From NCBI GenBank assembly GCA_040702975.1, contig CP159990.1:2976001-3040000 (forward strand): DNA of 64,000 bases, in the 5' to 3' direction. The notes below the pieces were generated by a model that was not told the DNA's origin, ran no database searches, and worked only from the letters and a program-made list of their open reading frames with translations. Made by a program: the position numbers and the translations under genes. The stretch comes from Roseburia hominis (lineage in GTDB: Bacteria > Bacillota > Clostridia > Lachnospirales > Lachnospiraceae). This document shows, one piece after another, positions 6,602 through 54,319 of this stretch (within the stretch, counting starts at the first letter, position 1; every line of letters begins with the position of its first letter).

Positions 6602-7249
6602 CTATTTATTTTCGCCGTTGCAACGATTATAATCCCGCCAGAACTCATCCGCTGTGTTCAGCAAATGTAAGACCATATACTGGCTGGCCTGGTCAGCCTC
6701 TTTTCGCTCAATGCAGGAAATAATCCGTTCCCATTCATTAATACTTGCCAGTCTTCTCTCTTCCGAGACCGAGGTCTTTGATGTAATACGGAGAATATTT
6801 GCCATCATATTATCCAGCAGGTTTACGACTATCGCATTTTTGGTCTTTTCTTTTATTACCGTATGATTGTCCAGTTCGCGATAACCGTATTCCTCATGCT
6901 CGGCCACCCTCATCCGCTGGGTATTATATTTCATTCGTTCGATATCGGACGCCGTCATTTCATTCATATTCCAGATCAATATCTGGGGCTCGACCATGAG
7001 CCGGACCTGGAAGGACTCCTCAATCGTCTTCTTGTCAATGGGCGCAACATAGGTTCCTGATTTTGCTTTAACGTAAAGCCAGTTTTCTTTCTTCAGACGA
7101 TCAATAACAATCCTGACGGCAGGACGCGTCACATTATATGCTTCGCAAATCTCACGTTCGCTGATCCGCGTGTTTTCCGCCAGTTCACCAGATAATATTT
7201 TATCCTTTATTTCCTGTTCAATCTGTTCTTCTATACTTTGATATTCCAT
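6602..7249 (-). CDS. GntR-family regulator, FCD subfamily
   Basis: The 215-residue protein has an N-terminal winged helix (about 10-70; ISEREICEAYNVTRPAVRIV is the recognition region) and an all-helical FCD ligand domain (about 80-205). GGGGGA precedes the start. FCD regulators sense small organic or amino acids, often with a bound metal. It sits directly downstream of the reductase/carrier operon, on the same strand, behind that operon's terminator, with its own promoter. The operator-like sequence over its -10 box is repeated almost exactly over the -10 box of the reductase operon, so it very probably represses both and is released by the reductase substrate. The ligand is unknown. Confidence 0.85.
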   Translation of the reverse strand: MEYQSIEEQIEQEIKDKILSGELAENTRISEREICEAYNVTRPAVRIVIDRLKKENWLYVKAKSGTYVAPIDKKTIEESFQVRLMVEPQILIWNMNEMTASDIERMKYNTQRMRVAEHEEYGYRELDNHTVIKEKTKNAIVVNLLDNMMANILRITSKTSVSEERRLASINEWERIISCIERKEADQASQYMVLHLLNTADEFWRDYNRCNGENK

Positions 7250-7326: not shown

Positions 7327-7358
7327 TCTAGAATACCATCAAAAAACAGGCTTTACAA
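7327..7358 (-). promoter_or_regulatory. Promoter and operator of the GntR gene
   Basis: Minus-strand TTGTAA (7353-7358), 17-base spacer, TATTCT (7330-7335). The -10 is embedded in TGGTATTCTAGA (7327-7338), which matches TGGTATACTAGA at the reductase operon promoter in 11 of 12 positions. This supports autoregulation. Confidence 0.6.
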
Positions 7359-7368
7359 CTAAAAATTC

Positions 7369-7393
7369 GGCTCCGGCAAAATCTGCCGGAGCC
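7369..7393 (-). terminator. Terminator of the reductase/carrier operon
   Basis: Perfect 10-bp stem GGCTCCGGCA / TGCCGGAGCC with a 5-base loop, followed on the minus strand by a T-rich tract (GAATTTTTAG), nine bases after the last stop codon. Confidence 0.85.
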
Positions 7394-7402
7394 CCAAATC
7401 CA

Positions 7403-8833
7403 TCAATCTGCTTGTTCCTTCCTCTTCGTCTGATACATCCCAATCCCGACTGCCGCCAGGAGCAGCGCCATGATCGGATTCCCGTAAGTATTCAAACTGT
7501 AAAGCGCATATCCGTTCGTCCCAAAGACTTCCACCCCCAGAGTCGCGACATAAAACGCCCCTGCTGCGCTCCACGGAACCAGCGGCAGCAACATCGTTCC
7601 GGAATCCTCAAGTGTCCTGGAAAGGACAAATGGCGGCATCCCTTTCTTTTTAAACTCCTCTGTAAACATTTCTCCGGTAATGATAAATGCCGGATAGGAT
7701 GAGCCTGCACATGCCGCAACCAGGAAATTAATGAGCAGTGCACTTCCCACCAGGGATACTCTTGTTTTGCATCGTCTTAGCAGTGGCCTTGCCGCAGTCG
7801 ACAAGAATCCCGCTTTATCAATAATCGCCGCATACGCATAGCCGCAATAGACGACAATTACAATACCGGCCATGGACTTCATCCCGCCTCTATTCAGCAG
7901 GGACATGATCGATTCTGCAACCTGGCCATCATAGACCGCTGATATAGAAAACCCATTTACACATCCATCGATTCCGGCTGCAACATCAAACCCCTGGACC
8001 ACCCCGCCGAGGAACAACGCCGCCGCAGATGAGACGATCATGACCGGAACCGTAGGCATTTTCAAAAACGCACCTAAAAAGAGAATCACAAACGGCACAA
8101 GTAATACCAGATTCCAATGGTAGATTTTATCAAGTGAATCTATCATTTCCGCCGCCAGAGCCGGCATGGTGTCAGCCGCGACAGAAAGTGTCCGGCCACT
8201 GATTCCGAATAACAGCAGCGAGAGGAGGCTTGCCGGCACCGTCGTCCACAGCATGGATTTGATATGGCTGTATATATCCGTGCCACAGCACATCGGAGCC
8301 AGATTTGTCGTTTCGGACAGCGGCGACAGTTTGTCCCCCACCAGCGCGCCGCATATGACCGCCGCCGCAGTGATATTCAGCGGAACTCCAAAGCCTGCTG
8401 CCACGCCCATCATCGCCACGCCTCCGGTTGCCGCCGACCCCCATGAGGTTCCTGTCACAGTCGAAAGTATTGCACAGACCAGAAAGCTGCATACATAGAT
8501 GTAATGAGGATGCAATAATTTTAACCCATAATATATGACCATTGGTATCGAGCCGCTGAATATGAAAGAAGCAATCACGATCCCGATCATCCAGATGATT
8601 AATACCGCCGGAGTGGCCTTCATCAGTTTCTCGCAAATCGCATTTTCCATATCCTGATAGGAATAGCCTAACCGTTTTGCAGCCACGCCCGCTACGACAG
8701 CAGACAAGATCATTAAGATCTCAATACGCACATGGAAAACGATATATCCGACCGCAACTATAACTGCCATCTGCGCAACTGCAAACAATGCCTCCCCAAA
8801 TCGTGGTTCTCTTTTCCGCGCATCCTTCATCAT
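7403..8833 (-). CDS. NhaC-family carrier (second of two)
   Basis: The 476-residue protein is almost entirely membrane-embedded, with about 11-12 hydrophobic segments. The conserved NhaC-family stretch GTSWGSAATGGVAMMGVA, the GDKLSPLSETTNLAP loop and the late DSGTMLLPLVPWSAAGAF segment are present. NhaC members include Na+/H+ antiporters and, importantly, organic-acid antiporters such as the malate/lactate carrier MleN. It is the last gene of the operon, 12 bases after the paralogue upstream, so its likely job is uptake or exchange of the reductase substrate or product rather than pH homeostasis. That role is inferred from context only. Confidence 0.85.
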   Translation of the reverse strand: MMKDARKREPRFGEALFAVAQMAVIVAVGYIVFHVRIEILMILSAVVAGVAAKRLGYSYQDMENAICEKLMKATPAVLIIWMIGIVIASFIFSGSIPMVIYYGLKLLHPHYIYVCSFLVCAILSTVTGTSWGSAATGGVAMMGVAAGFGVPLNITAAAVICGALVGDKLSPLSETTNLAPMCCGTDIYSHIKSMLWTTVPASLLSLLLFGISGRTLSVAADTMPALAAEMIDSLDKIYHWNLVLLVPFVILFLGAFLKMPTVPVMIVSSAAALFLGGVVQGFDVAAGIDGCVNGFSISAVYDGQVAESIMSLLNRGGMKSMAGIVIVVYCGYAYAAIIDKAGFLSTAARPLLRRCKTRVSLVGSALLINFLVAACAGSSYPAFIITGEMFTEEFKKKGMPPFVLSRTLEDSGTMLLPLVPWSAAGAFYVATLGVEVFGTNGYALYSLNTYGNPIMALLLAAVGIGMYQTKRKEQAD

Positions 8834-8845
8834 ACACCACCCTCT

Positions 8846-10231
8846 CTAAGATTTTTTCTGCATAAACCACCCTGTAAATCCATATATGATCAACAAAATG
8901 GAAGAAATCCAGAAGGAATAGTAAAACGGCAGGAAATCCCGGAACGTAATTCCCAGTGTCGAAACAATCAAAACATGACTTCCACACCACGGAACCAGCG
9001 CGTTTGTATGACCGGAACCTTCCAGTAAGCTTCTCACCATCGTCAGCTTATCCATACCCGCATCTTCGTATGGTTTTTCAAACATTCCCGTATTTAAAAC
9101 AATTCCTGTATAAGCGGTTCCCCCTAAGTATGTGCAGAGAACTGCCGAAATATAGGAAGATAAGACAAGGGTTCCTCTGTTTCCGGTAATTTTACCCATT
9201 TTTGAAATCAAAGCGTTCATGACGCCGACGGACTCCAAAGTACCGGCCAAAATAAATGCACAGAATATAATCAGCATGATTCCCATCATATCGAGCATTC
9301 CGCCTCCGGTAAGGAGCTTATCGATCTCGGCTACCCCTGTATCCGTAACATATCCATTATAGAGCGCATTCAACATCTGTCCCGGATCTTTGCCCTGGTA
9401 GAACACTGCAATACCGAGCGCCAGTACGACTCCTAATACCAACACCGGCAGAACCGGCTTCTTTTTAGCCGCCAGTACGACCACCACGATGATCGGTATC
9501 AAGAGTAAAACGAGATTAATCTTATACTGACTGCTGATTCCGTCAACCAGGAACTGGATTTTTTCTTTGTCCATCCCGCTTCCGGCATATCTAAGGCCCA
9601 TGACTGCAAAGATCACTGCCGCAGCCACGCCACCGATTCCACTTGTGGGCAGCATCTTTTTCCAGACGTCGATCACATCTTCGCCGGTCATGGCTGCTCC
9701 CAGATTCGTGGTGTCTGATAACGGACTCCATTTATCCCCGATCCAGCAGCCGCTGACGATCGCGCCTCCTGCAATACCAACAGGCACTCCGATTCCATTG
9801 GCCACTCCCATAAGCGCTACGCCCACGGTCGCACAGGTCGTCCATGAAGAACCCGTAGCTATGGATACAACCGCGCAGGCAATAAACGCCGCAACAAGGA
9901 AAGTGCCTGGCGTCAATGTTTTAAGTCCCATGATCACCAGCGCCGGAATCGTGCCACTCGCAAGCCATGATGCGCTGATCAGGCCGACCATCAGCAGAAT
10001 GATGACAGCCGACATTCCTTTGGAAAACATCGCAAGGATATTTTTGTAAATTTTATCCCACTCTATTTTCAGTACAATAACTCCGTACGCCGCCGATACC
10101 ATTGCACATAGCAGAATCGCCATCCCTGTCGGGAACCGCCCGCTGGCCAGGACAAATATGACAACAAATATAGCAACCAAAATTAATGCTTCCAAAAAAC
10201 TAATATCTCTTTTTTCTTTTCTTTCCCCCAT
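8846..10231 (-). CDS. NhaC-family carrier (first of two)
   Basis: The 461-residue protein has about 11-12 hydrophobic segments and the same family landmarks as the next gene: GSSWTTCATVGVALMGVANG, GDKWSPLSDTTNLGA and EGSGHTNALVPWCGSH near the C-terminus. The start has an AAGGAGG Shine-Dalgarno and lies 14 bases after the stop of the selenoprotein gene, so the two are surely co-transcribed. Two adjacent, clearly diverged NhaC paralogues suggest a division of labour (for example substrate import and product export) or two related substrates. A literal Na+/H+ antiporter role is possible but does not explain the operon. Confidence 0.85.
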   Translation of the reverse strand: MGERKEKRDISFLEALILVAIFVVIFVLASGRFPTGMAILLCAMVSAAYGVIVLKIEWDKIYKNILAMFSKGMSAVIILLMVGLISASWLASGTIPALVIMGLKTLTPGTFLVAAFIACAVVSIATGSSWTTCATVGVALMGVANGIGVPVGIAGGAIVSGCWIGDKWSPLSDTTNLGAAMTGEDVIDVWKKMLPTSGIGGVAAAVIFAVMGLRYAGSGMDKEKIQFLVDGISSQYKINLVLLLIPIIVVVVLAAKKKPVLPVLVLGVVLALGIAVFYQGKDPGQMLNALYNGYVTDTGVAEIDKLLTGGGMLDMMGIMLIIFCAFILAGTLESVGVMNALISKMGKITGNRGTLVLSSYISAVLCTYLGGTAYTGIVLNTGMFEKPYEDAGMDKLTMVRSLLEGSGHTNALVPWCGSHVLIVSTLGITFRDFLPFYYSFWISSILLIIYGFTGWFMQKKS

Positions 10232-10245
10232 CTTCCTTCCTCCTT

Positions 10246-11544
10246 CTATAATACATTAAAAATCGTCTGATCATCAATGTCCGTCTGTAAAGCCTTTAAC
10301 GCCGTTTGTACCAGTTTTCTTCTGACCTCCTTCTCTTCCCCGGGAGTAACATTCGGATTCCCCGTCACATGTGGTATGGATATGCCCGGAACAATTCTGT
10401 TTGCTCCGACCGACTTGGAGATCGGGGTAACTGTACAAATATGGACTGCCGGAATACCTTGTGCTTCCAACTGTTTTACGATCGTTGCGCCGCAACGTGT
10501 ACAGGTACCTCATGTAGAGGTCAGGATCACACCGTCTACCTTGTCCTCCGCAAGTTCTTCCGCTATGGATTTTCCAAATTCTGTCGCCCTCGTCGTCGGC
10601 ATCGCAGTTCCGGTGGTGACGAAGACTTTGTCATACAGATGTCCTATTTCCCCTGCATTTTCCATCTCTTTTAGTACGTCCGACGGCAGTACACGCCTTC
10701 CGTCCTCATTGACATACACAGGATCGTATCCTCCATGCACGGTTTCCGAACAGGAAAGATCGAATCCCCCGTACTCGTCAAAGCTGTGACTCACGTATTT
10801 CATCGCCGCCGATGCCTCTAAGTGGTTAGGATTTCCCTTCGGCACCAGTCCGCCCGTCGTGACAAATGCAATCGTGGCATTCTTAATATCCCGGATCGCG
10901 GGACTTGGCAGCACCTTTTCAAATACCGGCATTGGGAGTTCTGTCTTATATGGTCTCCCGCCGATCTTGTCCATGAGCATATCCACGCCACGCTGGGCGC
11001 CTGTCTTGTCCGACATGAAGACTTTACGAATTCCCCGCTGGATATATCCGTCTTTCTCCGGCTCGTCGATGATCTCCCCAGCCGCGATCCTCTTAATAAA
11101 TTCGGCCATTCTTTTGATGGTTTTCGTCATGTATCTTGCAGAGTCTCCACACGGCAATATGTAAGCATATCTTCTGTACATCAGCACGCCCGGATTATCT
11201 TCGTTCATGGAGCTGACGGCTTCCACTCCCATCTCATATGCGCTTTTGCAAACTTCTCCGCAAGAGACGCCATAGCGTCCTGCCAAAAATGCCGGACCTG
11301 CGACAAGCAAATCGGCCTGATACTCTTTTAGAATTTCTTTAACCTGTTCTGCCGCTTCTGCATGTTCAACGTAATAATTGTCGCCGCAGATGATCGTCGC
11401 AACAATTTGGGCCGCATCCCCCAATTCCTTTTGCAATCCGTTTCCGGGGCCCACGCTGCCGCTTCTTACTTCTAATGGGTGACCGGCCGCTTCCTCGCCC
11501 CCGATCTGCCCGAAGAACTGATTAATATAATGAACAATCCGCAT
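10246..11544 (-). CDS. GrdB-like selenoprotein of a glycine/sarcosine/betaine reductase-type component B
   Basis: The gene contains an in-frame UGA (minus strand, 10510-10512) at codon 345; reading through it gives 432 residues, the normal GrdB/GrdF/GrdH length. The context STUGTCTRCG around it is the conserved selenocysteine (U) active site of component B, and both halves align to the family (N-terminal MRIVHYINQFFGQIGG, C-terminal GNPNVTPGEEKEVRRKLV). I chose ATG 11544 because GGGAGG lies eight bases upstream; a GTG at 11553 is possible. In the known enzymes the Sec attacks the alpha carbon of the substrate bound to the pyruvoyl of GrdE-type subunit, passing a carboxymethyl group to GrdA. 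Which substrate this copy serves is not visible. Automatic annotation would split it into two ORFs. Confidence 0.93.
10483..10512 (-). promoter_or_regulatory. UGA selenocysteine codon with candidate bacterial SECIS hairpin
   Basis: Twelve bases after the UGA the minus strand has a perfect 6-bp stem CGTTGC/GCAACG (10483-10488, 10492-10497) with a 3-base GCC/GGC apex, placing the apical loop about 19-21 bases after the UGA. Bacterial SelB-binding hairpins sit immediately downstream of the codon within the coding sequence at this distance. The structure is by eye. Confidence 0.6.
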
Positions 11545-11559
11545 TCTGTACACCTCCCA

Positions 11560-12822
11560 TTAATATACCTTTGATGTCAATTTTGTCATACCCATTCCGT
11601 TATGCATACTCATAATGCTGGAAACCGTTACATATAAACTTCCATCGGGACGGATACTCTCCTCTGAGCCTCCGGCAAGAATCTTAATCTGCTCCTCATG
11701 GCCGATGATCCGATCCATTTTAGGCAGCAGCATTTTTTCAATTCTGCTTCCCACATTGACGACCGCATCCGCTTCCGGAGTTGAATCCGTGATGGCTTCT
11801 TCCTCCCCGATGGCACCTACTATCATGACTGTGCGGATTCCATTTTTTTCTGCGTTCCGGCAGAGCATCATGAGGTCCGCCTCCGGATTCCCGCCGCCCT
11901 CTTCCGGGAGGAGAAGCCCGTCGAGCCCCAATGTCCTTGCAATGTTAATCGCACCGGTACAGCATCTTTTCTTATCTGCAAGTCCCGGACAGGAAGGGGT
12001 AAATATGATTCCGGCAAATTCCAGATCCTTCCCATGTCTTTTATACAGTTCCTTGACTAATGGGTTATTCTGATGATCATAAGTGGTGTACTTGTTCGAC
12101 GCAACCACGCAGTTTCCGCTTACGAGCGCTCCATCCATCAATTCATTCGGATGAAGCAGCGTCGTGTGAATCTTCTTTGCATCTACTCCATAAACATAAT
12201 TGTCGTGGAGAAGTCCCTGTGCCATCGCCAAAAACAGGATTGCGACCTTCGGCAGAGGCTTGTCAGGTTTTTCCAAATGATAGACCTCCTCTTCGTCAGC
12301 GGCCACATTTTTCGCACAGGAGGCCAAATATTTTGCGGCTTTGATCCCTGCCAGACGAATCGCGGTCTCATGCTCGGCAGGCGCTACTCCCTCCTTCTTT
12401 TCAGCCACGATCACAACATTATTCAAAACAGAATAATAACAGTGCTCGGCTGCCGGACCTGTCATGTCGATGATTCCTTCCTGGAATCCAACGATCTTCC
12501 CCGTTGTAACTACTCCGACCCCTTTCAATACTTTTGTCCGACCGTCCCCGGTTCCTTCGCACTCTCCCAGAAATCCCGGAAATGCATTTCCCTCTTCATC
12601 GATTTTGACTCTCGGCTCGATTACATCTTTTACCGGTATAATGCGAACCGACTCTCCCGGTCTGGCAAGCTCTATATCGATTGATGTCAGCCTGTCATCC
12701 TGTAAATAGTCAATCAATTCTTTCTTATTGATTTCCAGAACATGCTCCTTTACCTGCGTTACTTCGCCAAATCTGATATCCTTGATGTGGATAAGTTCCA
12801 ACGTAAGATTCATTCCTCCCAT
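11560..12822 (-). CDS. GrdE/GrdG-like proprotein of reductase component B
   Basis: The start is set at 12822 (MGGMNLTLELIHIKDI) because AGGAGG lies six bases before it; this gives 420 residues. The family signature GALVSGN-CVVASNK places the cleavage/pyruvoyl Cys at residue 238, with the conserved TYDHQNNPLVKELYKRHG segment following and LLLPEEGGGNPEADLMM near residue 310. In GrdE and GrdG self-cleavage before this Cys produces two subunits and the pyruvoyl cofactor that forms a Schiff base with the amine substrate. It is first in the operon, 15 bases ahead of the selenoprotein. Substrate specificity resides in this subunit, and the unusual carriers alongside argue for something other than the standard glycine system. 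Confidence 0.9.
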   Translation of the reverse strand: MGGMNLTLELIHIKDIRFGEVTQVKEHVLEINKKELIDYLQDDRLTSIDIELARPGESVRIIPVKDVIEPRVKIDEEGNAFPGFLGECEGTGDGRTKVLKGVGVVTTGKIVGFQEGIIDMTGPAAEHCYYSVLNNVVIVAEKKEGVAPAEHETAIRLAGIKAAKYLASCAKNVAADEEEVYHLEKPDKPLPKVAILFLAMAQGLLHDNYVYGVDAKKIHTTLLHPNELMDGALVSGNCVVASNKYTTYDHQNNPLVKELYKRHGKDLEFAGIIFTPSCPGLADKKRCCTGAINIARTLGLDGLLLPEEGGGNPEADLMMLCRNAEKNGIRTVMIVGAIGEEEAITDSTPEADAVVNVGSRIEKMLLPKMDRIIGHEEQIKILAGGSEESIRPDGSLYVTVSSIMSMHNGMGMTKLTSKVY

Positions 12823-12840
12823 AAAAATCCTCCTATTATC

Positions 12841-12944
12841 TGGTATACCATAATTTCTTTTTTTCTTCTCATTTTTGCGCATAACAGAGTTTTTATTGAT
12901 TGTTTTACAAAATCTAGTATACCACTTAGCATTGATATCGTCAA
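12841..12944 (-). promoter_or_regulatory. Reductase operon promoter with GntR operators
   Basis: Minus-strand TTGACG (12939-12944), 17-base spacer, TATACT (12916-12921), with the -10 inside TGGTATACTAGA (12913-12924). A perfect palindrome TGGTATACCA (12841-12850) lies in the leader near the ribosome binding site, and related half-sites TTGGTATACAAG (12988-12999) and GGGATACCAG (13036-13045) lie upstream. The arrangement suggests repression by the downstream FCD regulator. Region 12823-13074 has no gene and is AT-rich. Confidence 0.65.
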
Positions 12945-13074
12945 TATATTTCTTTTATTTATAAATATATTTTATTTTTGCATTTCTTTGGTATACAAGT
13001 ATGTCTATTTTCCATAATAAGCATTGGGAATTTTTGGGATACCAGATTTGAATATCTCAATCATAAATTAAAAA

Positions 13075-45068: not shown

Positions 45069-46283
45069 TCAAACAGTAAAATACAGCCTGCCCCAATCTA
45101 TCTTTTCTCCATTTATCGGTATCCGCAGGAATTCCTCCCCGTTCATCAGAACAGCTCCGTTTAGCCGGAATTCTATGATTCTGCTGAACGCATCTTCTCC
45201 CGGCAGACGGCCCACATTGCTCTCTTTCGTCCCGGAAGAACTGCCGAGATGAACGTCCACCGGACGTTCACTCAGGTATGCATGGCAGCCAAACGCCTCC
45301 GCCCACCTTGCCTCGGCCTGCTCCCCGCCCCGATAGGGAGATGCGTACAACAAACGGTTCGCCAGCTCGTATACATGCTCCTCCCTGCTGACTTTCACTT
45401 TGACCACACGCCCGTTCGCTTCCTCATACCAGGCGGCCATATGCACACATTTCTCCTCCAAAAGGGAAAGCGACAAAGATGCGACCGCTTCCAGAACCTC
45501 TGACGGCCAGCCCTTTTCTCTATTCCTTCGCCTGTCCCCTTTTTGGGCAAATTCCCGATTCAGATTCAGATAAAGAAGGACCACCGGGCCTAATGGTTTC
45601 CCGTGCTCCTTGACCAGAAGCTCCTCTGATTTTGCCGACAGTTTCCAATGCACATCATGCAGGGCGTCTTTCTCCTTGTACTCCCGGATCTGATAGATCT
45701 CAGACGGGTCGTCTCCCTTCTCCCGGTCCGAATACTCCTCGGCATCTGCCAGAAATTCCCGTGTCCGCCTGCTGACCTCCACCGGAACCAGATGACACTC
45801 CGGCAGGATTCCTACCTGGCTGACCTCTTTGCAGCGTTTTCTCGTCAGAAAAATATGCAGCAGATCATATAGCTCCACCGCTTCCAGCACAATCCGCAGA
45901 TTTCCACACTGATCCGACTGGGTGTGCATTTTCACCTCTGTTTTTCTTCCACGCAGCGCGCAGCCCTTTACGCTGCACGTTTTGATTTCTCCCGTAAATG
46001 TATTTTCTATGCGCATCCTCAGCCGAAAATGAACCGCCGGTATCCGCGAACCATTCTCTATTCTTACCGGTACCGGAATCTTCTGTCCTTTCTCCGCCAC
46101 TGCCAGAATCGTTCCAAGCCGCACCTTGATCCCTTTTCTTGCAAATAGAAGAAACCCCGCTCCCAAAATCGGATATAAGAACTCTGCGACCAGCAGCATT
46201 CCCAGAATCCGGTCATCATACAGGAAAAAACAATATAAGGTCAGCAAAACGACTGCTATATAACTAACAATTCTCTTAATCAT
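45069..46283 (-). CDS. DUF58 domain protein
   Basis: The start at 46283 (MIKRIVSYIAVVLLTLYCFF) overlaps the end of moxR by eight bases and follows AGGTGGGG; the protein has 404 residues. Two N-terminal TM segments are followed by a beta-rich domain and the DUF58 landmark DPSEIYQIREYKEKDALHDVHWKLSAKSEELLVKEHG, which adopts a vWA-like fold. DUF58 proteins pair with MoxR ATPases as putative chaperone systems. It is the middle gene of the trio, 64 bases before the transglutaminase gene. Confidence 0.85.
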   Translation of the reverse strand: MIKRIVSYIAVVLLTLYCFFLYDDRILGMLLVAEFLYPILGAGFLLFARKGIKVRLGTILAVAEKGQKIPVPVRIENGSRIPAVHFRLRMRIENTFTGEIKTCSVKGCALRGRKTEVKMHTQSDQCGNLRIVLEAVELYDLLHIFLTRKRCKEVSQVGILPECHLVPVEVSRRTREFLADAEEYSDREKGDDPSEIYQIREYKEKDALHDVHWKLSAKSEELLVKEHGKPLGPVVLLYLNLNREFAQKGDRRRNREKGWPSEVLEAVASLSLSLLEEKCVHMAAWYEEANGRVVKVKVSREEHVYELANRLLYASPYRGGEQAEARWAEAFGCHAYLSERPVDVHLGSSSGTKESNVGRLPGEDAFSRIIEFRLNGAVLMNGEEFLRIPINGEKIDWGRLYFTV

Positions 46284-47238
46284 GCCCCACCTGTTTTCTT
46301 CTTGCCGTTGGCTTTGGAACCTCACCAAGCACCTGATTCAGCACGTCTTCCACATTGACGTGAGCGACCTTCGCTTTGATCCCCAGCGTTACACGATGTC
46401 TGACCGTACACAAGAATACTTCTTTCACATCTTCCGGAATCACAAAGTCTCTTCCCGCAAGATAGGCCCTCGCCCGGCTCATCGCCGCAAGCGCCACCGT
46501 TCCTCTGGGGCTTAAGCCCGAACTTAACAGTTCCTGCTCCCGTGTCGCTTTAGCCAGCCGCGCTATGTACTCAAACACAACCTCATGCACGAACACCCCG
46601 GCAGCCTCTTCCTGCATCTGAAGGATCAACTGATCATCGGCCACATTTTCCACCTGTTCCACCACGCTTCCGGCCTGTCTGCGCTTTAGTATTTCGATTT
46701 CCTCCTGCACCGTGGGATATCCCATATGAATGCTGATCATAAACCTATCAAGCTGCGACTCCGGCAAAAGCATCGTTCCCGCCGATCCTTCCGGATTCTC
46801 CGTCGCAATCACAATAAACGGCCGTCCCGTTTCCCGGCTCACGCCGTCCACCGTTACCTTTCTCTCCTCCATAACCTCCAAAAGCGCCGACTGCGTCTTG
46901 GGAGAGGTCCTGTTAATCTCATCTGCCAGAAACAGATTGCACATGAGAAGCCCCGGCTGATACACGAACTTGCCTCTCTCCTTCTGATAAATGGAGAATC
47001 CTGTCAGATCCGCCGGCATAATATCCGGCGTGAACTGTACTCTTTTTTCCATAAGCCCCATAGCTTTGGCAAATGCCAGTGCCATGGTGGTCTTCCCTAC
47101 CCCCGGCATATCCTCTATCAAAATGTGGCCTCCCGCCACAATCGCCGTCATGATCTTCTCAATAACGTCCGATTTCCCGACTACTGCTTTTTCAACTTCC
47201 CTGATGATTGCTTTCGCTTCCTGATATAAAGCTGACAT
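46276..47238 (-). CDS. MoxR-family AAA+ ATPase
   Basis: Starting at 47238 (MSALYQEAKAIIREVEKAVVG) the protein has 320 residues, the usual size. It shows Walker A (EDMPGVGKTTMALAFA), Walker B (FLADEINRTSPKTQSALLEVMEE), sensor 1 (ATENPEGSAGTMLLPESQLDRF) and sensor 2 regions. MoxR ATPases are chaperone-like and act together with vWA/DUF58 proteins. First gene of the operon with DUF58 and the transglutaminase. Cytoplasmic; client unknown. Confidence 0.9.
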   Translation of the reverse strand: MSALYQEAKAIIREVEKAVVGKSDVIEKIMTAIVAGGHILIEDMPGVGKTTMALAFAKAMGLMEKRVQFTPDIMPADLTGFSIYQKERGKFVYQPGLLMCNLFLADEINRTSPKTQSALLEVMEERKVTVDGVSRETGRPFIVIATENPEGSAGTMLLPESQLDRFMISIHMGYPTVQEEIEILKRRQAGSVVEQVENVADDQLILQMQEEAAGVFVHEVVFEYIARLAKATREQELLSSGLSPRGTVALAAMSRARAYLAGRDFVIPEDVKEVFLCTVRHRVTLGIKAKVAHVNVEDVLNQVLGEVPKPTARRKQVGHD

Positions 47239-53986: not shown

Positions 53987-54319
53987 AAAAGCCCCTCATC
54001 TCATAGAAAGAGACGAAGGACTTACCTCTCCGTGGTACCACTCTTTTTCATTGCTTCTTACGCACAAAATATGCCAAGCGCCGGAAACAATGCACTTTTC
54101 TTCTATAACGGGAATCCCCGCCTGCGGCTACTTCGCGCACTGACGAACCTATTCATCGTAATCTGTCATACGCTTCAGGCAAGCGATCTGCAAGGCTCCA
54201 TATTCACCACAGGAACTCCAAGGCGAGTTCAAAGTCTTTACCTGCTGCCTTGCACCAGCCGGCAGTTCTCTGGAAAGTATCTGACTTCTACTACTCCTTA
54301 TCTTCGTTTCTACATATTC
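53987..54319 (-). ncRNA. T-box leader of leuS (leucine, CUC specifier)
   Basis: The minus strand has the T-box sequence AGTGGTACCACGG (54030-54042), the stem I landmark GCCGGCTGGTGCAAGGC, and GAA-CUC-GCCUUGGAGUUC with CUC (54225-54227) as specifier codon. The terminator (CCTTCGTCTC with GAGATGAGGGG, then TTTT, at 53987-54019) overlaps the T-box end, and a further hairpin CTGCAC/GTGCAG lies at 53961-53978. Uncharged tRNA-Leu should stabilise the antiterminator. Confidence 0.9.

Follow-up and report, generated by a model that had tools for sequence, protein, structure and literature searches.

In the 64,000-nucleotide stretch of the Roseburia hominis genome analyzed here (contig CP159990.1, positions 2,976,001 to 3,040,000; hereafter the window, whose own coordinates are used throughout), a compact operon grdE-grdB(Sec)-nhaC-nhaC occupies positions 12822-7403 of the minus strand. 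Its first two genes encode the alpha and beta subunits of a glycine-reductase-like component B, the beta subunit being read as a selenocysteine (Sec) protein, and the other two encode NhaC-family carriers. A GntR/FCD regulator gene, omitted from a preliminary description of this DNA made from the sequence alone, belongs to the same module. The genes and signals are as follows.

11560-12822, minus strand: gene for the GrdE-like proprotein (component B alpha), 420 amino acids; PF09338, 523 bits.
12109-12111, minus strand: Cys238 codon of the GrdE-like gene, aligned with pyruvoyl Cys242 of Clostridioides difficile GrdE.
10246-11544, minus strand: gene for the GrdB-like selenoprotein (component B beta), 432 amino acids; PF07355, 449 bits; TGA read as Sec.
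10510-10512, minus strand: in-frame UGA for selenocysteine in the motif UGTCTRC, the only in-frame TGA of grdB.
10472-10509, minus strand: bacterial selenocysteine insertion sequence (SECIS) element; Rfam SECIS_4 RF01990, 48.9 bits, gathering threshold 38.
8846-10231, minus strand: gene for NhaC-family carrier 1 (NhaC1); PF03553, 148 bits; TIGR00931, 347 bits.
7403-8833, minus strand: gene for NhaC-family carrier 2 (NhaC2); PF03553, 160 bits; TIGR00931, 405 bits.
6602-7249, minus strand: GntR/FCD regulator gene, a separate gene; PF00392 and PF07729.

The four genes named in the preliminary description (GrdE-like, GrdB-like with Sec, NhaC, and NhaC) are all present at this place and on this strand. 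The longest open reading frame (ORF) of the grdE-like gene begins at 12882, but AGGAGG stands just 5' of the ATG at 12822, and for this reason the latter start, already chosen in that description, is preferred. The likely start of the GrdB-like gene is the ATG at 11544, and the gaps ahead of the two NhaC genes are 14 and 12 nt. The operon was also described as having no GrdA, GrdC, GrdD, or thioredoxin genes alongside; a tblastn search with the host genome's own GrdA, GrdC, GrdD, TrxA, and TrxB proteins likewise finds none within the 64 kb. The GC content of the operon (48.9%) is close to that of its flanks (48.4% and 48.1%), so base composition gives no signal of lateral gain.

A PF09338 alpha subunit beside a PF07355 selenoprotein is the gene pair expected of the component B superfamily, as are a Sec codon and a SECIS element in the beta subunit. 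The SECIS_4 match begins directly after the UGA, and the grdB reading frame runs on past it. The Sec column (written as Cys in the alignment) is invariant in all 26 proteins, the window's included, with one TGA per frame, and the window keeps the Sec motif UGTCTRC intact. By plain folding energy, the SECIS stretch does not stand out from shuffled sequences (z 0.48). The structure models (predicted local distance difference test scores 81.9 and 87.9) have no meaningful match in the PDB: the best match of GrdE has an E-value of 0.018, and five matches of GrdB reach E <= 0.001 (best 2.2e-4), yet with template modeling scores of about 0.2. A PDB sequence search with GrdB, GrdE, and NhaC1 gave no match.

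The GrdB of the window passes the subfamily model TIGR01918 by a wide margin (512 bits against a cut-off of 65) and falls below every model for a named substrate. It scores 496 of the 602 bits required by the glycine GrdB model TIGR01917. With the sarcosine models NF040793 and NF040794 the pair reaches 437/780 (GrdG) and 537/800 (GrdF), and with the betaine model NF040795, 458/775; the pyruvoyl Cys is present, unlike in the betaine type. The model NF053623 for fluoroacetate reductase FarE (203/675) and the D-proline reductase models for PrdA and PrdB (TIGR04480 and TIGR04483; 45/700 and 92/300) are also rejected.

The phylogenetic tree was built from 63 concatenated GrdE and GrdB pairs, hand-chosen from the 163 paired loci of 211 GrdE; one pair of the host, L014, was left out. 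The tree came from a quick method, and L013, L019, and L183 were flagged by the program for long branches. The window and its relative L016 fall within a 12-row orphan clade (support 99), in a 7-row subclade (support 99). This clade stands apart from the sarcosine (5 rows, support 100), betaine (10 rows), and glycine groups; the sarcosine group is nested within the glycine group, together 38 rows with support 97, and a reference row, L068, is of the glycine type by model (735/602). In approximately unbiased (AU) tests with L013 left out, joining the window and L016 to the sarcosine group is rejected (p 1.1e-10), as is placing them inside the glycine and sarcosine group (p 1.5e-4). The phylogeny of the two subunits, proposed in the preliminary description as a check, therefore puts the pair outside the glycine, sarcosine, and betaine clades. 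By these models and trees, the operon is by descent a selenoprotein component B within the glycine/sarcosine/betaine reductase superfamily, in none of its named branches.

The genome of the host, a single contig of 4.26 Mb, contains seven PF07355 matches in all, six over the whole model and one partial in a locus (L015) that by eye resembles a proline reductase operon. Three loci are assigned by curated models: L010 encodes a glycine component B (GrdB 713/602), L011 a sarcosine component B (821/800; GrdG 874/780) that also narrowly exceeds the glycine model (604/602), and L012 a betaine component B (845/775). None of the equivalog or exception models accepts the pairs of L013, L014, or the window; their GrdB pass the general subfamily model TIGR01918. 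Elsewhere in the genome are two GrdA frames, each with one TGA, and GrdC and GrdD above cut-offs, as had been predicted for a shared set; the window pair may use these proteins in trans. The Sec machinery, also singled out for checking, is represented by selA (620 bits, cut-off 268) beside selB (375 bits, cut-off 242). Judged by these models, the genome can supply the shared components A and C and some of the Sec machinery, and other component Bs already cover each of the three classical substrates. That glycine, sarcosine, and betaine each have a component B of their own that passes its model strengthens the proposal of a different substrate for the window pair.

The other two orphan component Bs of the host differ from the window pair. 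L013 (G000:C1:3771000-3790000; genes at 10067-11335 and 8740-10050, minus strand) combines Tyr at the pyruvoyl site with a very long branch, and its neighbor encodes a CitMHS/DASS-like carrier; the locus perhaps encodes a component B for a non-amine acid. L014 (G000:C1:2564500-2583500; 8911-11579, minus strand) lies beside genes for an SSF symporter and a protein of the M20 peptidase family; the reading of its GrdE-like gene is divided between two frames, with Ser in place of Cys at the pyruvoyl site.

The residue at the pyruvoyl site provides the main indication of substrate class. This site is residue 242 of C. difficile GrdE, according to PMC9908766, and corresponds to Cys242 of L039 in our alignment and to Cys238 in the window. 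Cys is found there in 33 of 33 glycine-group, five of five sarcosine-group, and 12 of 12 orphan-clade rows, and Phe in all ten betaine-group rows, with group names read from the tree around L010, L011, and L012 (only these three and L068 were model-tested). Three rows lie outside the named groups, L150 and L245 with Cys and L013 with Tyr. Over all 211 GrdE, a set that includes some fetched twice from one genome, the counts are 192 Cys, 14 Phe, and 5 Tyr. Four of the five Tyr loci (L237, L239, L241, and L242) have, by eye, an aldehyde-dehydrogenase-like gene, and the fifth is L013 of the host. A RibF-like gene was seen by eye at three of these four; the one tested, in L239, is a Pfam-confirmed riboflavin kinase. 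These four loci resemble the flavin-induced fin neighborhood of Clostridium scindens, as outlined in PMC12934955.

The group pattern fits the published cysteine rule: FarE, according to PMC10838667, is like betaine GrdI not a proprotein, both being without this Cys, and C. difficile GrdE has the pyruvoyl Cys. Because the orphan clade keeps the Cys, with betaine-type proteins having Phe and riboflavin-cluster-like proteins Tyr at this site, the component B of the window is predicted to bind a primary or secondary amine. The retained Cys likewise makes a quaternary amine an unlikely substrate. A second difference concerns an acidic loop, T-D-E-x-x-G. The glycine-group (33/33), sarcosine-group (5/5), and betaine-group (10/10) rows all have its Glu, and each of the seven rows in the window subclade has either lost or rewritten the loop.

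The two carriers are only 32% identical to each other, and NhaC2 is above and NhaC1 below the curated cut-off of TIGR00931 (370 bits). The comparison covered 210 GrdE loci, the window among them, with 103 of the others exceeding 8 kb in length; beyond the window, NhaC-like matches occur at L016, L184, L185, and L072, the last being upstream and about 32% identical. A distant genome, G505, has an NhaC gene directly behind grdE and grdB at two loci, L184 and L185; the two NhaC proteins share 97% identity, and NhaC2 is 58% identical to them. In a comparison of 18 NhaC, a clade with 100/100 support unites the NhaC2-type proteins of the window, L016, L184, and L185, and the nearest others are 41-42% identical. 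This linkage of NhaC2-type carriers to GrdE and GrdB in L016, L184, and L185 makes NhaC2 the best candidate, and a likely one, for the cognate carrier. NhaC1 is an addition present only in the window and L016 among the loci compared.

From kinship, the carrier substrate can be predicted no more closely than amino- or organic-acid-like. The closest NhaC1 relative found (L265) adjoins an ornithine-cyclodeaminase-family gene (PF02423) and, by eye, a regulator-like gene; an NhaC2 relative (L270) has an amidohydrolase-family neighbor in what by eye resembles an aspartate/malate neighborhood. These neighbors do not settle the substrate. The preliminary description's view of the carriers as organic-acid-like, and its suggestion that they exchange substrate for product, gain no support here. 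Two kinds of NhaC-superfamily carriers are tied to amino acids, and neither settles it either. ArcD-type arginine/ornithine antiporters belong to this superfamily, and the NhaC of the window score 277 and 244 bits against the ArcD cut-off of 650. A lysine-riboswitch NhaC is described as a possible lysine transporter in PMC11477304; the host has such a gene at 1569872, preceded by a lysine riboswitch (95.5 bits; L246, 669-838), unlike the two in the window, and it is not close to NhaC1 or NhaC2. Amino-acid permeases near two other subclade members (L018 and L183) make an amino-acid-like substrate fitting.

The candidate regulatory sites around the operon are these.

12916-12944, minus strand: sigma-70-like promoter before grdE, TTGACG-17-TATACT with TG before the second hexamer; 10 of 12 in a consensus scan.
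7369-7393, minus strand: intrinsic-terminator-like hairpin behind NhaC2, 11-bp stem with 8 GC pairs and a T-rich tail; consensus scan.
12913-12924, minus strand: operator-like site TGGTATACTAGA, overlapping the -10 box; identical in L016.
12839-12850, minus strand: operator-like site TGGTATACCAGA, holding the palindrome TGGTATACCA.
12989-12998, minus strand: operator-like half site TTGTATACCA; identical in L016.
7327-7338, minus strand: operator-like site TGGTATTCTAGA before the GntR gene; one mismatch in L016.

The predicted promoter and terminator serve as guides only, because the same scan gives 19 promoter-like and 12 terminator-like sites in 6.9 kb (shuffle means 11.1 and 5.2). The GntR/FCD gene (7249-6602) comes after the terminator-like hairpin. 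With at most one mismatch, the 64 kb contain three copies of TGGTATNCTAGA: two lie before grdE, one of these over the -10 box, and the third lies before gntR; 0.73 occurrences are expected, and three were reached in 4 of 100 shuffles. The sequence TKGTATACCA is found at two places, both before grdE only, one of them palindromic and counted on both strands (expected 0.11; three reached in none of 100 shuffles). The motifs were picked after seeing the alignment, and these statistics are therefore likewise a guide. Sites matching these are found in L016 too, ahead of grdE and, with one mismatch, ahead of gntR. The GntR gene of L016 is 84% identical and flanks the operon at the same end but points the other way relative to it, which argues that the linkage is not mere gene order. 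Since the gene is conserved beside the operon, and the operator-like sites stand before grdE and gntR and nowhere else in 64 kb, the GntR/FCD protein probably regulates the operon.

The orphan type is rare and patchy in the sampled genomes. Among the best 80 of 578 relatives kept from a scan of genome contigs, five loci show 55-88% identity and the next at most 51%. In the host's own family, 41 of 397 genomes, its own included, have GrdE at E <= 1e-60, and only its own exceeds 48% identity; in the class, 46 of 391 genomes match at E <= 1e-115, again with only its own above 51%. The genome of L016 (G397) is the sole carrier of the orphan type among 97 related genomes including itself, 18 of which match at E <= 1e-100. 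In the family of genome G399, 53 of 247 genomes match at that threshold, three of them at 52-59% (G398, G399, and G505). GrdA is present in all five relatives' genomes tested. Neighbors of L018 include CoA-transferase III, acyl-CoA dehydrogenase, electron transfer flavoprotein, and an amino-acid permease, partly found by eye also at L017 and L022; they suggested a carnitine-like link, but such genes are not adjacent in the window or L016. A single contig of Anaerovorax odorimutans SL.3.17 (L181, L182, L018, and L183) encodes three orphan-clade GrdE/GrdB pairs with GrdA and, by eye, GrdC, GrdD, SelA, and SelB, as well as an octopine-dehydrogenase-family gene and a D-serine-dehydratase-like gene.

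Each known system shares part of its design with the window operon. Glycine reductase GrdE/GrdB has the same two-subunit build, UxxCxxC Sec motif, pyruvoyl Cys, and SECIS, and needs GrdA, GrdC, and GrdD; the window pair is about 45-51% identical to it, outside its tree group, below its model cut-off, without the T-D-E loop and adjacent GrdA or thioredoxin genes, and with its own NhaC carriers. Sarcosine GrdG/GrdF, the best NCBIfam match, likewise has adjacent alpha and beta genes and the pyruvoyl Cys, whereas the window has lost the second Cys and scores below the cut-offs; the host sarcosine locus sits with an SNF-type sodium-dependent transporter (NF037979), unlike the NhaC of the window. 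Betaine GrdI/GrdH resembles the window in its separate operon, a transporter-like neighbor in the host (by eye), and the same Sec motif, but differs in the Phe at the pyruvoyl site and is far apart in the tree. The fluoroacetate system FarE/FarB (farACEB) likewise keeps its component B in a separate operon that includes an antiporter, and is proposed to deliver to a shared GrdA and component C. Its carrier, as described in PMC10838667, is of the oxalate/formate major facilitator superfamily type, and FarB has no CxxC; in contrast to FarE without the Cys and FarB without the CxxC, the window has the Cys and an intact UGTCTRC. The GrdE/GrdB homologs finHI, in the flavin-induced neighborhood of C. 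scindens as outlined in PMC12934955, are a recent case of a non-classical context. A carboxymethyl flavin, our suggestion for their substrate, would have no free amine; fin-like loci have Tyr at the Cys site (four of four), unlike the window. In the titles and opening parts of abstracts searched, a set with most subscription journals outside it, no description of a GrdE/GrdB pair with NhaC carriers was found; in PMC11477304, NhaC and glycine reductase appear as unconnected topics.

Taken together, we regard it as quite probable that the operon encodes the substrate-specific component B of a glycine-reductase-like system acting on an amine other than glycine, sarcosine, or betaine. The preliminary description suggested a different amine or N-methyl compound. 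The different substrate is upheld by the presence of all three classical component Bs in the host; an N-methyl compound is possible and no likelier than other primary or secondary amines. Our guess is that the best-fitting substrates are compounds of the type R-NH-CH2-COO(-), e.g., N-carboxymethyl amino acids or other N-substituted glycines, since it is a carboxymethyl group that the shared components process (mechanism reviewed in PMC10298544).

In the proposed mechanism, NhaC2, perhaps with NhaC1, would import or exchange the substrate, and the GrdE proprotein would be cut at Cys238 to give a pyruvoyl group. This group, or a GrdB carbonyl that it may serve, would react with the substrate's primary or secondary amine to form a Schiff base or iminium. 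The GrdB selenolate would then attack the activated carbon, releasing the amine, and the carboxymethyl group would pass to the selenocysteine of GrdA encoded elsewhere; GrdC and GrdD would release acetyl phosphate for ATP formation. The whole operon would be under the probable control of the GntR/FCD protein. A bolder version, which we consider unlikely, is a new pyruvoyl-selenoenzyme whose reductive cleavage of N-carboxymethyl amino acids yields acetyl phosphate and the free amino acid; one NhaC would import the substrate, and the other would export or exchange the amino acid set free. Examples of N-carboxymethyl compounds are strombine, iminodiacetate, and N-carboxymethyl-lysine, a glycation product. 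If this version were true, N-carboxymethyl amino acids would be terminal electron acceptors for an anaerobe.

Several observations weigh against the assignment to a different amine. Sequence models and trees are no proof of a substrate. Five of the seven subclade rows (L017, L018, L183, L019, and L022) have no NhaC in the stretch examined, and L184 and L185 are near-identical copies within one genome. The second Cys of the GNCVSACDK motif is Ser in the GrdE of the window, and processing might for this reason be slower or absent; FarE is described in PMC10838667 as being without two conserved cysteines, in the plural. The role of the pyruvoyl group is itself debated in the literature. In one view, reported in PMC9908766, it serves to keep GrdB active, with glycine bound by a cofactor of GrdB. 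PMC10838667 names as a possible carbonyl source the Ser of the GrdB STUG motif, which the window retains.

The likeliest alternative is a second glycine or sarcosine component B, with the same substrate, a drifted sequence, and another carrier and regulator. It would explain the retained pyruvoyl Cys and the best NCBIfam scores to sarcosine models (GrdF 537 and GrdG 437 bits); moreover, glycine is plentiful, and two or more GrdE matches occur in several genomes of the family. We nevertheless judge it unlikely, as the scores are 263 and 343 bits short of the sarcosine cut-offs, AU tests reject joining, the Glu of the acidic loop is lost in 7/7 subclade rows, and both reductases are already in the genome. 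Still less probable is a component B for a non-amine or a tertiary or quaternary substrate (betaine-, fluoroacetate-, or flavin-like), in which the Cys would be a relic: published kin with such substrates or contexts exist, FarE/FarB (PMC10838667) and finHI (PMC12934955), but the groups tied to them have no Cys (betaine Phe 10/10, fin-like Tyr 4/4), the orphan clade has it in 12/12, and the FarE model scores only 203 bits against 675. A decayed or silent, laterally acquired operon with no present function would suit the patchy distribution (own genome only, of 397, above 48% identity; G397 only, of 97, above 49%) and is very improbable, given that L016 retains all four frames with their spacing, the UGA and SECIS, the GntR gene, and the operator-like sites, at 78-83% DNA and 84-92% protein identity.

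Two further observations concern other parts of the window. A 16-residue stretch GCHAYLSERPVDVHLG (45243-45290, minus strand), encoded in frame within the ORF 45069-46328, agrees with residues 116-131 of the PrdA-like protein of L015 at 15 of 16 positions; the match is unexplained and perhaps due to chance. A T-box leader lies at 54006-54313 on the minus strand (Rfam RF00230, 122 bits).

In summary, component B decides which electron acceptor a Grd-bearing anaerobe can use, and the bacterium probably uses as a respiratory acceptor an amine beyond the known reductase types. The curated models used name component Bs only for glycine, sarcosine, betaine, and fluoroacetate, with flavin-derived compounds as a recent lead. 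As six component Bs occur in this one genome and three pass no such model, much of the chemistry of the family is still to be assigned. The cysteine rule is a simple sequence test that may split unassigned component Bs into amine and non-amine types. For the window operon, the orphan clade, the kept pyruvoyl Cys, the lost acidic loop, and the NhaC2 partner make the substrate question directly testable.

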